Source: an uncultured Chlorobiaceae bacterium
GTDB lineage: Bacteria > Bacteroidota > Chlorobiia > Chlorobiales > Chlorobiaceae
Length of the DNA: 45,285 nt
Direction: 5' to 3'
Assembly (NCBI GenBank): GCA_903915955.1
Contig: CAIWUU010000194.1
Location: 1 to 45,285, forward strand
Shown here: positions 33,931 through 42,002 of the stretch, one piece after another
How positions within the stretch are numbered: position 1 is the first letter of the stretch
Layout: each line of letters opens with the position of its first letter
Made by a program: the position numbers and the translations under genes
Notes under the pieces: model-generated
The model's input: the letters and a program-made list of their open reading frames with translations, nothing else
What the model was told of the DNA's origin: nothing
Database searches by the model: none

Positions 33931-33991
33931 GCACTAAAACACTTGAAATTAACAGAGTATTTCAAAATTTACCACAGAGATGAAATGCAAA

Positions 33992-34014
33992 GGAACCCTT
34001 TTTAAAAGGGTTCC
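33992..34014 (-). terminator. Hairpin after eno, likely terminator
   Basis: GGAACCCTTTT (33992-34002) and AAAAGGGTTCC (34004-34014) are perfectly complementary; in practice a GGAACCC/GGGTTCC stem with an A/T loop. On the minus strand it is followed by TTTGCATTTC, a modest U-rich stretch, so termination may be partial. Confidence 0.65.
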
Positions 34015-34027
34015 CTGCAAAAGTTAT

Positions 34028-37638: not shown

Positions 37639-37640
37639 TC

Positions 37641-37703
37641 AAGGATGCTCCCTCAGTGGCAAGGCAACCTTCGTCGTTGCCTTGCCACTGAGGGAGCATC
37701 CTT
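37641..37703. repeat. Perfect 28-bp inverted repeat filling a convergent intergenic gap
   Basis: Left arm 37641-37668 (starts AAGGATGCTCCCTCAGTGG) and right arm 37676-37703 are exact reverse complements with a 7-base loop CTTCGTC. It lies two bases from the EF-G-like stop and two bases from the glycosyltransferase stop. No T-run follows directly on the plus strand; on the minus strand one comes about ten bases later. Confidence 0.9.
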
Positions 37704-37705
37704 GC

Positions 37706-38497: not shown

Positions 38498-38520
38498 GGG
38501 CTTTTAGAAAACTTCAAAAA

Positions 38521-38550
38521 AAAAGCATTGCCCTCTTGAAGCAATGCTTT
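38521..38550 (-). terminator. Intrinsic terminator after pscB
   Basis: AAAAGCATTGC (38521-38531) and GCAATGCTTT (38541-38550) form the stem. On the minus strand the stem is followed by a run of eight T residues (complement of the A-run ending at 38524), so it ends the pscAB transcript. Confidence 0.88.
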
Positions 38551-38578
38551 CTTAGAATAGTAAACGAATAACGTCGCC

Positions 38579-39319
38579 TTAACGCACCTCTTTGTGAAAT
38601 CTGTGAAGAAATCTCAGATCAAAATCAAGGCGTTCAGGAGGCGTATAGACATAATCAATTATCTCTCCATCAGGATGGACTTCAATGAGCGCTCCCGAAG
38701 GGCATTCATCCGCATTAAAACAAGCAGAGCAGGAGATACAGGCATCCTGATCAATGTAAGCCCGGAATCCACCTTCCTGAACATCTCCATAAAACTTGTA
38801 ACCAATAGCCTGGACTTTTGGAGGACACTTGTCAAGACAAAGACCACAACCAACGCAAAGGTTTTCTATGATAAAATAGTGATCTTTCTCTCTTGGTGCA
38901 GCTTTTTTCACTGGCGCTCCAGAGGCTGGAGGTGCAACCGGAGCAGGCTCCGTGGCGGCTTTGGCTACAGGCGCACCCTTCGAAGCAGGTGCTGCGGGCT
39001 TTTGGCCCGGAACTGGTTTTGCCCCGGCTACCGGTTTGGATGCGGCAACAGGTGCAGGTTTTGGCGCAGCTTTTACCTCTTTCTTGATCGGAAAAGCTGA
39101 ATCTTGTGGCAGACCGCTTCTGCCGAGATTAACATTAATGGGCTCGAGCCGAAGCTTACCTCCCTGTTTCGGTGAAAGCTCTTTTGGTTTTGCCTTTACC
39201 TCTTGTTTGGCAGCCGGATTGGCTGCTTTTGGTGAAACAGGTGGCATTTTCGGTGCAGCAGGTGGCACCTTGGCAACAGGCTTTGACGATATATCTGGCT
39301 TTTGTACAGGATCGGCCAT
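38579..39319 (-). CDS. pscB: Photosystem P840 reaction centre iron-sulfur protein PscB (FA/FB)
   Basis: PscB carries the terminal [4Fe-4S] clusters FA and FB and passes electrons from FX in PscA to ferredoxin on the cytoplasmic side. The C-terminal third has two clusters: cysteines 155, 158, 161, 165 (CVGCGLCLDKCP) and 194, 197, 200, 206 (CISCSACFNADECP; the last spacing is longer than usual). The first ~140 residues are a low-complexity Ala/Pro/Lys tail, probably flexible and basic. A GAGGAGG ribosome site precedes the ATG. It follows pscA on the same strand after 92 bp with a hairpin. Confidence 0.96.
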   Translation of the reverse strand: MADPVQKPDISSKPVAKVPPAAPKMPPVSPKAANPAAKQEVKAKPKELSPKQGGKLRLEPINVNLGRSGLPQDSAFPIKKEVKAAPKPAPVAASKPVAGAKPVPGQKPAAPASKGAPVAKAATEPAPVAPPASGAPVKKAAPREKDHYFIIENLCVGCGLCLDKCPPKVQAIGYKFYGDVQEGGFRAYIDQDACISCSACFNADECPSGALIEVHPDGEIIDYVYTPPERLDFDLRFLHRFHKEVR

Positions 39320-39368
39320 AAAAACCCTCCTCTTTAATTACAGTATGATAAACTTTAAATGCAAAGAA

Positions 39369-39406
39369 TTTTTTCTGGAGAGGCACCAAAGCCTCTCCAG
39401 AAAAAA
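39369..39406 (-). promoter_or_regulatory. Perfect 16-bp hairpin between pscA and pscB, likely mRNA-stabilising
   Basis: TTTTTTCTGGAGAGGC (39369-39384) and GCCTCTCCAGAAAAAA (39391-39406) pair fully with a six-base loop. It begins five bases after the pscA stop. In either direction U residues come first and A residues last, the reverse of an intrinsic terminator, so readthrough into pscB is expected. Confidence 0.85.
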
Positions 39407-39411
39407 CAGTG

Positions 39412-41607
39412 TCAAGCAATCAGCTTCACCAGATAGTCAACAACCTGAGTCAACATAACATGACCTGATAATGCGGCATCACCAACCTGGGGAGGCAACG
39501 GAGAGTCGGTCTGATAAAAGCCGTTGCCGATGAAAAGAAACACCAGCATAAAAACACCACCGAAATAAAGGAATGTACCAGCCATCTTCGAGTCAGAAAT
39601 CGTCAGTACCGGGAAGCGGAAGTTGACATCACGGTTAAGGAATTTCTTTCCAAACCAACGGATTGTTCTTGTCTGAATGTCAGCACCTTCAAGACGTGAG
39701 CCACGATCCTCAAACCATACTGCAAAGCTGATAAACCAAACAAGGTGACCGATCATCAGAATGGTTGAAAGATGTGAACTTGAGAAGATATTCACCGTCT
39801 CTGTCCAGAAATAGTAGAAAATACCCGACGTATAGTGGTGAGCAAGATGAGCTACAGAATCCCATGCCTTCGCATCAGCCGTAGGAACACCATACATCAT
39901 CGAAGCAATCCATGCACCGTCAATATACCAGCAAACTGCAGAAAGACCCTTGACTCCCCAGAGCATCGCAAACCAAAGCTGATCCTGGATGGAGACACCG
40001 CAAGTACCGCCATAAACAGGGCCAAGACATGGGAAAGAATAGGAGTTCTTCTTGAGGCCAAGATCATCCCAAAGCGGTGACGTGTGTGAAAAGAAAGCGA
40101 TACGTACAAGTGCAATCAAGGAGAAAAGAGAACCTGCGACAATAACATGAACCATCACCCAGTCGTTGATACTTGGATCCCTGAACATCCACTGGAAGAT
40201 TGGAAGTGGTTTCAGCCAGTAGAACGACATCAAAATGTTGGTACCAAACAGATTCAGTTCGCAGATAGTATTCCAAACGATAACAGCGTAAACAGAGAGC
40301 ATGGTGGCAAAGCAGAGCGCCATAACCGTTCCAAGAATCTTTACCTGGACCTCCTGATCACGTCCTTTGGTAATAAAAACAGACTTGATCTGGCTGTAAA
40401 GACCATTGAGCTGAATTTTAAGAAGATACTGCCCCCCATGATAGACACCTGCGAAGACATAGAGAACACCGCAGATGATATGGTTGAAGGTTATGAGGTT
40501 AATGACGGTCCTGGACATTCCGAATGAAGCTCCATTCTTTGGAAGAATTGCAAAAGCCTCAAAATCAGCAAACTCCTTGGTACCTGAAATAATCCTGCCA
40601 CCTTCCTGAACGAAATTATAACTGACACGATTGAAAGGCTCACCGTAAAGATAAAAGACAAGGTTGTCGAGCTCCTTGTAATAAGCCGCAAAAGATGGCT
40701 GCTGGAAAGCAACAAATGCGACACAACCGCAGGCAATGCTTATATACCCCATTGCCGTGAGGTGCACCGAGAATGCCGCCTTCATGTCATCATTCAGGTG
40801 TGTTGCCGCATTCGGAGGATTGTTCCACCAGTAAATACCACAAGCGAAGAAGATAACAGCCAGAACAAAAGACATGAATGTCTCGGAATTAATTGTCTGG
40901 AAATCAGGAATTGGCGCAAAACCAAGCACAAACCACATCAAAAAACCCCAGCCAAGAAAAAGAAGTGACATATACACAGCATGTGGTCCCAATGCTTCTC
41001 TGTAGCTCTTCGCACTTATTCCACTGAACACCAAATCACCAAACTTGCCGAGGAACCTGAAGTCACGGAAATTGCCCGTACGTCCCGTAAAGGGATTGGT
41101 TAGATTGTGAGTCCAGTGGCGCCATCCGCCGAAAAGAAGAATCGAGCCGGAAAGAAGATGAAAAAGAGCCCAACCAAGAAGCTTCGATGCAGCAAACTCA
41201 AGATCCTCAGTTTTTGTGCTGTAGGTATCAATACCAAGAGATACCATCCTTGGCTTGATCGTCAGATAAAACCAGTTATCATGAAAGCCAGGCACACCCC
41301 AAGGAAACACCTGAATACCGGAGATATAGTAGATTGCCATCAGAAAGCCAAGAACACCAAGCAATGCAAGGTGAGCGCCAACAACCTGCTCATCATCAAT
41401 CTTGTCGGTATCAAAAATCTGGTACCACTTCGTTGAGCGAGTTTCTGTTCGCTGGAACAAGAACCTCCTCATTTTCGAAGCATCCTGCTCCTTGATAACA
41501 GATGGTGCGCCCGCAACGCCATTCCCCTTTGGAGATAGAGCGTTCCCCTTGGGAGGTGGGACAGTGCCCTTTGGCTTGACTCCTGCCGGATTCACTTGTT
41601 CAGCCAT
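39412..41607 (-). CDS. pscA: Photosystem P840 reaction centre large subunit PscA
   Basis: PscA forms the homodimeric type I reaction centre core that binds the P840 special pair, the A0 chlorophyll and FX. The 731-residue protein has a Pro/Lys-rich N-terminal tail with repeated PKG units and about eleven hydrophobic membrane segments. The FX loop is FPCLGPVYGGTCG, with Cys527 and Cys536 as cluster ligands; each monomer gives two cysteines. The C-terminal domain (HHYTSGIFYYFWTETVNIF and following) holds the electron-transfer pigments. An AGGAG site precedes the ATG. It is first of pscA-pscB and divergent from dapF. Confidence 0.97.
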   Translation of the reverse strand: MAEQVNPAGVKPKGTVPPPKGNALSPKGNGVAGAPSVIKEQDASKMRRFLFQRTETRSTKWYQIFDTDKIDDEQVVGAHLALLGVLGFLMAIYYISGIQVFPWGVPGFHDNWFYLTIKPRMVSLGIDTYSTKTEDLEFAASKLLGWALFHLLSGSILLFGGWRHWTHNLTNPFTGRTGNFRDFRFLGKFGDLVFSGISAKSYREALGPHAVYMSLLFLGWGFLMWFVLGFAPIPDFQTINSETFMSFVLAVIFFACGIYWWNNPPNAATHLNDDMKAAFSVHLTAMGYISIACGCVAFVAFQQPSFAAYYKELDNLVFYLYGEPFNRVSYNFVQEGGRIISGTKEFADFEAFAILPKNGASFGMSRTVINLITFNHIICGVLYVFAGVYHGGQYLLKIQLNGLYSQIKSVFITKGRDQEVQVKILGTVMALCFATMLSVYAVIVWNTICELNLFGTNILMSFYWLKPLPIFQWMFRDPSINDWVMVHVIVAGSLFSLIALVRIAFFSHTSPLWDDLGLKKNSYSFPCLGPVYGGTCGVSIQDQLWFAMLWGVKGLSAVCWYIDGAWIASMMYGVPTADAKAWDSVAHLAHHYTSGIFYYFWTETVNIFSSSHLSTILMIGHLVWFISFAVWFEDRGSRLEGADIQTRTIRWFGKKFLNRDVNFRFPVLTISDSKMAGTFLYFGGVFMLVFLFIGNGFYQTDSPLPPQVGDAALSGHVMLTQVVDYLVKLIA

Positions 41608-42002
41608 TGTATTCTCTCCTTTTTTTGAACATAATTCAGGTTGAAGAAACCAAAAAGAAAACTATTTCGCCACGTAAGCAATGCCTATACAACAAAAAAT
41701 AAAGCAACTTCGCAAAAAGAACTGATTTTCTCAATATCTCCAGCGAATTGTAAACGCATTACACATGATCACTACCTTAGAATCTATAGAAAAACAAAGT
41801 AACAATCAACTCGAGTACGGTAATCTGCCAAGAAAATCACCTGATACAGTAATTGACATAATACGAAAAATTATTTAATAATAAATTAATTTTACCCCCG
41901 CATTGATGCGCTATTGTTTTATAATACAGCATTAAAGCACTTGCTGGACATGTTTGTACTCATTGTAGTCCGACGTGATGCGGCAAAAGGAACTCTCAAA
42001 TC
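41608..42002. other. 395-bp divergent region between pscA and dapF
   Basis: AT-rich control region for pscA (minus) and dapF (plus). It holds no convincing small gene. A sigma-70-like promoter for dapF is listed separately. I found no clear promoter motif on the pscA side, although its ribosome site (AGGAG) is strong. Confidence 0.55.
41853..41882 (+). promoter_or_regulatory. Possible sigma-70-type promoter of dapF
   Basis: TTGACA (41853-41858, 6/6) and AATAAT (41877-41882, 5/6) with an 18-bp spacer. The expected start of transcription would be near 41889, about 115 bp before the dapF ATG. The surrounding AT-richness makes chance matches likely. Confidence 0.45.

Follow-up and report, generated by a model that had tools for sequence, protein, structure and literature searches.

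A conserved stem-loop between pscA and pscB of Chlorobiaceae, a putative mRNA decay-blocking hairpin

Background

What is the role of a perfect hairpin placed between two genes of the same reaction centre, and does RNA polymerase stop at it? The question is raised by the pscA-pscB gap in the window, by which we mean the whole stretch of 45,285 nucleotides analysed here, located in contig 194 of a 2.52-Mb Chlorobiaceae genome; the closest relative listed is an uncultured Chlorobiaceae MAG, whose PscA is 98% identical. The pscA gene (39412..41607, minus strand, with the stop codon TGA at 39412-39414) is an ORF for the P840 reaction-centre core protein (731 aa, Pfam PF00223, PsaA_PsaB), and pscB (38579..39319, minus strand) is an ORF for the F_A/F_B iron-sulfur protein (246 aa), which comprises Fer4 domains (4Fe-4S dicluster) and a Pro/Ala-rich N-terminal extension of roughly 140 residues. 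On the 3' side of pscB lies a canonical bidirectional intrinsic terminator (38519..38553, minus strand), in which a GCATTGC stem is followed by a T9 run. A scan of the minus strand of the pscA-pscB gap for promoters, covering sigma-70-like sites only, found none. The pscAB cluster of Chlorobaculum tepidum is treated in the literature as a unit with one promoter region before pscA and a rho-independent terminator behind pscB (PMC3842273), and from this layout, together with the lack of a sigma-70-like promoter in the gap, read-through into pscB would be expected.

The leader of pscA (41608-41665, minus strand, upstream of the gene) is strongly conserved, with GGTTTCTTCAACCTGAA followed by CAAA..AAAGGAGA. 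It can form a small GGUU/AACC hairpin and has no match in Rfam, and an identical 12-mer, GGTTTCTTCAAC, is present in 46 of 67 pscA upstream regions.

Structure of the intercistronic element

The element (39369..39406, minus strand) is a 38-bp palindrome that reads TTTTTTCTGGAGAGGC-tttggt-GCCTCTCCAGAAAAAA on the minus strand from 39406 to 39369, i.e. a perfect 16-bp stem with a 6-nt loop. Five nucleotides (CACTG) separate it from the pscA stop codon and 49 nt remain between it and pscB. The two 16-nt arms are 100% complementary, with a G-U pair extending the helix to 17 bp, and the stem consists of a 10-bp G+C-rich core and six A-U pairs, the U6 and A6 tracts being the outer 6 bp of the helix. 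The 95-nt gap is predicted to fold at -32.1 kcal/mol (shuffled sequences: -18.8 +/- 3.3, z = -4.0), and its stem score of 39.5 exceeds the best of 5000 dinucleotide shuffles (36.5). The full complementarity of the arms, the z-score of the fold and the absence of any equally scoring shuffle together argue that the stem is real and not a product of chance. The remainder of the gap (39320..39368, minus strand) is an A+U-rich linker containing the Shine-Dalgarno (SD) sequence of pscB (AATTAAAGAGGAGGGTTTTT). In our alignments the part of the linker adjoining the pscB start codon is strongly conserved, unlike the arms of the stem, and the linker is a candidate region for endonuclease cleavage.

The original prediction described a fully paired 16-bp stem five bases past the pscA stop, which our analysis confirms, and regarded its reversed polarity (U6 before the stem and A6 after it) as a functional signature. 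The latter proposal fails, as this form (U6/A6 or U5/A6) is limited to four closely related genomes, namely the window and L033, L034 and L035, where it constitutes a basal A-U extension of the helix; other pairs serve elsewhere, and the stems of other relatives are closed by other sequence. We therefore rejected the polarity as a signature and consider it incidental, while the feature shared by the family is a stable stem mostly devoid of a U-tract.

Conservation and covariation in Chlorobiaceae

A protein search for pscA returned a match in 92 of 98 genomes of the order, from which the gene neighborhoods were extracted, and the pscA-pscB gaps were compared in 77 Chlorobiaceae genomes including the window (L033-L107, L112 and the window). 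A stem-loop was found just past the pscA stop codon in 77/77 gaps, at a median distance of 8 nt (range 3-16) from the stop and with its end at a median distance of 47.5 nt (range 43-61) from the pscB start. The stems have a median of 14 pairs and a median energy of -24.7 kcal/mol; the one in L039 scored weakly in the ungapped scan, yet folds at -29.0 with internal mismatches. In 63 of the 77 gaps the observed stem score was reached by none of 200 shuffles. The stem is present also in Chlorobaculum.

The sequence of the stem turns over rapidly, with 60 distinct 5' arms among the 77 genomes; even L033, the closest relative, has a stem that departs from that of the window in one pair (a G-C to U-A swap). 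MAFFT alignments of three clades, built from sequence alone, have 95.4, 98.9 and 96.8% of their cells paired; in these, 8/17, 4/18 and 9/16 pairs, respectively, are changed on both sides (counted per sequence and not as independent events along the tree), a number of two-sided changes that was not matched by any shuffle in the three alignments. When the register was slid by one to three columns, pairing fell to 35-58%. The turnover of the arms, the two-sided changes and the high level of pairing indicate that selection acts on the pairing and not on the sequence, and the stem is a real, family-wide conserved RNA element after pscA. The 77 stems also share a compositional bias, with a purine-rich, SD-like 5' arm and a pyrimidine-rich, anti-SD-like 3' arm, which sets them far apart from nearby stems.

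Comparison with transcription terminators

To compare the stem with intrinsic terminators we used a U-tract score of the d'Aubenton-Carafa type, counted from the G+C core. The pscA-pscB stem of the window scores 0.14, whereas the pscB terminator, with its U9 tail, reaches 5.5. The pscA-pscB stem is followed by A6 past the G+C core and by TCTTTGC past the full stem, i.e. not by the U-tract of an intrinsic terminator; it is nevertheless among the terminators called by a permissive consensus scan (5 T in 8). Median scores are 1.63 in genus g1 and 0.30 in the Chlorobaculum-like genus g2, and a value above 2.9 is found in only 5 of 76 genomes. At least six T within the 8 nt past the stem occur in 12/77 gaps (e.g. 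L074, L050, L067). The same measure is reached at the 3' end of pscB in 73 of 80 records (including a few from sister families), and other same-strand gaps of the same neighborhoods have a strong U-tract at 56 of 70 strong stems. Since both pscB and the neighboring gaps retain strong U-tracts, the loss is specific to the pscA-pscB site. The pscB terminator stem (GCATTGC/GCAATGC) is unusually constant, being found in most Chlorobiaceae and in the sister-family genomes L108 and L109, which contrasts with the fast-changing pscA-pscB stem.

Two other hairpins of the window deserve mention. One (33970-34020, minus strand, GGAACCCTTTTAAAAAGGGTTCC) likewise lies between two cistrons, eno and a divIC-like gene, lacks a strong U-tract and has a similar counterpart in several relatives; hence pscAB is not unique in having such a stem. 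The other (37640-37704) is a perfect 29-bp hairpin with a 7-nt loop and no U-tract, present in a single copy in the genome and positioned between convergent EF-G-like and glycosyltransferase genes; the nearest relative retains an 11-bp G+C-rich core at this place.

In the sister families a stem past the pscA stop was found in ten genomes, and in eight of them it is followed by U5-U8. Six of the ten (L108-L111, L117 and L118) have pscB downstream of pscA; for L117 and L118, with pscB at a short distance, this tract is a U6. These data are most simply explained if pscA was ancestrally followed by a terminator-like stem, which Chlorobiaceae kept while its U-tract was eroded. In the same six genomes the conserved ferredoxin part of pscB starts only about 180-390 nt past pscA, so these genomes must have a shorter N-terminal extension than the window, or none.

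Predicted function and alternative explanations

We consider it probable that the pscA-pscB stem is an intercistronic hairpin that blocks mRNA decay and thereby stabilizes the pscA message. It has the anatomy of such an element, being a stable stem-loop between same-strand genes, near the upstream stop codon, structurally conserved among relatives (77/77 gaps, with compensatory changes) and, in the window, lacking a uridine tract on its 3' side. Processive 3'-to-5' exonucleases are blocked by a stable 3' stem, and Pfam models identified PNPase, an RNB-type exonuclease, RNase E/G and Rho in the host genome, which thus encodes both the endonuclease and the exonucleases that the model calls for. 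The original prediction had held that the stem is not an intrinsic terminator, which agrees with its appearance in the window genome, and had proposed an alignment across Chlorobiaceae as a check, which the stem passed; its suggestion of a block to 3'-exonucleases is plausible in view of the enzymes encoded.

According to this model, RNA polymerase would read through the stem, as no U-tract follows it, and the pscA-pscB transcript would end at the strong terminator past pscB. An endonuclease (RNase E/G) would then cleave the RNA within the A+U-rich linker or pscB, and 3'-to-5' exonucleases (PNPase, RNase R/II-type) would degrade it back to the hairpin and halt there, leaving a longer-lived pscA message and, consequently, more PscA than PscB. 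The cryo-EM structure of the reaction centre contains two PscA and shows PscB as a single density (PMC9529944), which fits the decay-block idea but does not test it. Unequal expression of pscA and pscB could equally stem from their ribosome-binding sites.

The main rival to the decay block, owing to about a dozen relatives with moderate U-tracts, is a weak transcriptional attenuator, i.e. a leaky intrinsic terminator at which some polymerases stop, so that pscB is transcribed less than pscA. On this reading the stem would have descended from a full terminator whose U-tract was weakened to set the level of read-through. The U5-U8 tracts of the sister families and the T-rich stretches past 12 of the Chlorobiaceae stems would fit partial termination. 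However, the A-tract that follows the G+C core of the window stem and of the three genomes nearest to it, the near-zero score of the window, the low median of genus g2, and the strong U-tracts that pscB and the neighboring gaps have retained all speak against it, and we regard an attenuator as rather unlikely.

A translational device is less likely still. Here the pyrimidine-rich 3' arm would pair either with the purine-rich 5' arm or with the pscB SD sequence, and the translation of pscB would be tuned by ribosomes that terminate on pscA and extend into the base of the stem. Purines do make up 82% of the 8 nt nearest the loop in the 5' arm (48-56% in other stems, 30% in pscB terminators), and the duplex of the 3' arm with the SD sequence has a mean energy of -9.7 kcal/mol, versus -3.0 for the 5' arm. 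Nonetheless, in genus g1 the pairing of the 3' arm with the genome's own SD sequence (-8.46) is hardly different from that with the SD sequences of its g1 relatives (-8.34), a C/U-rich 3' arm is missing from several genomes (e.g. L069, L083), and removal of most of the 5' arm gave sample folds without consistent sequestration of the SD sequence. We therefore rejected an anti-SD switch, despite a genuine purine/pyrimidine bias, as the own SD sequence fits no better than those of relatives.

Finally, the perfect dyad symmetry could point to a DNA-level element (a protein-binding palindrome, a member of a repeat family or the scar of a mobile element), which we consider very improbable, since it is the pairing and not the arm sequence that is conserved, the palindrome is present in a single copy in its genome, which led us to reject a repeat element, and an Rfam scan of the gap matched no known RNA family.

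Relationship to known systems

The decay-block hairpin proposed here belongs to a known kind of RNA device, while its site after pscA is apparently undescribed: we found no earlier report of a pscA-pscB hairpin in the open literature, a search whose coverage does not extend to the pscAB cloning papers of the early 1990s. The prediction is directly testable, since Chlorobaculum carries the element and C. tepidum is genetically tractable (PMC3842273).

The pscA-pscB stem resembles an intrinsic (rho-independent) terminator in being a G+C-rich stem-loop just past a stop codon, and the sister-family stems at pscA are terminator-like. It differs in that the U-tract is absent in the window and weak in most relatives, and in that the gene downstream of it is pscB, a member of the same pscAB cluster, which has its terminator behind pscB (PMC3842273). 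A closer likeness is found in the malE-malF and other differential-decay hairpins of Escherichia coli, which are likewise stable, located at the 3' end of the upstream gene, devoid of a uridine tract and conserved among relatives; 26 of 34 stabilized upstream genes of E. coli end just past a stable hairpin that is not followed by a uridine tract (Dar and Sorek 2018, PMC5927463). Those hairpins were mapped by Term-seq together with decay rates and many lie inside coding regions, whereas the pscA-pscB stem occupies an intergenic gap and is known from its anatomy and conservation alone.

Klug et al. (1987), cited in PMC6238624, used deletion to study how the intercistronic hairpin between pufA and pufL of Rhodobacter capsulatus affects segmental mRNA stability. 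The two systems belong to different phyla and involve different genes, and we claim no sequence relation between them; puf was analysed by deletion whereas pscAB is proposed from sequence alone. They are alike in that the hairpin lies between cistrons of the photosynthetic apparatus, the upstream product is needed in excess, and RNase E and 3'-exonucleases are available. It is possible, although we put this forward only tentatively, that in Chlorobiaceae an ancestral pscA terminator lost its U-tract and, with selection on pairing alone, became a decay block that polymerase reads through, and that the 2:1 ratio of PscA to PscB in this type I reaction centre is set by differential mRNA decay in a manner convergent with puf. 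If true, the comparison with the sister families would be a clear case of how a terminator may become a decay block, and green sulfur and purple bacteria would have independently come to set the subunit ratios of their reaction centres with a hairpin protecting the upstream portion of their common mRNA.
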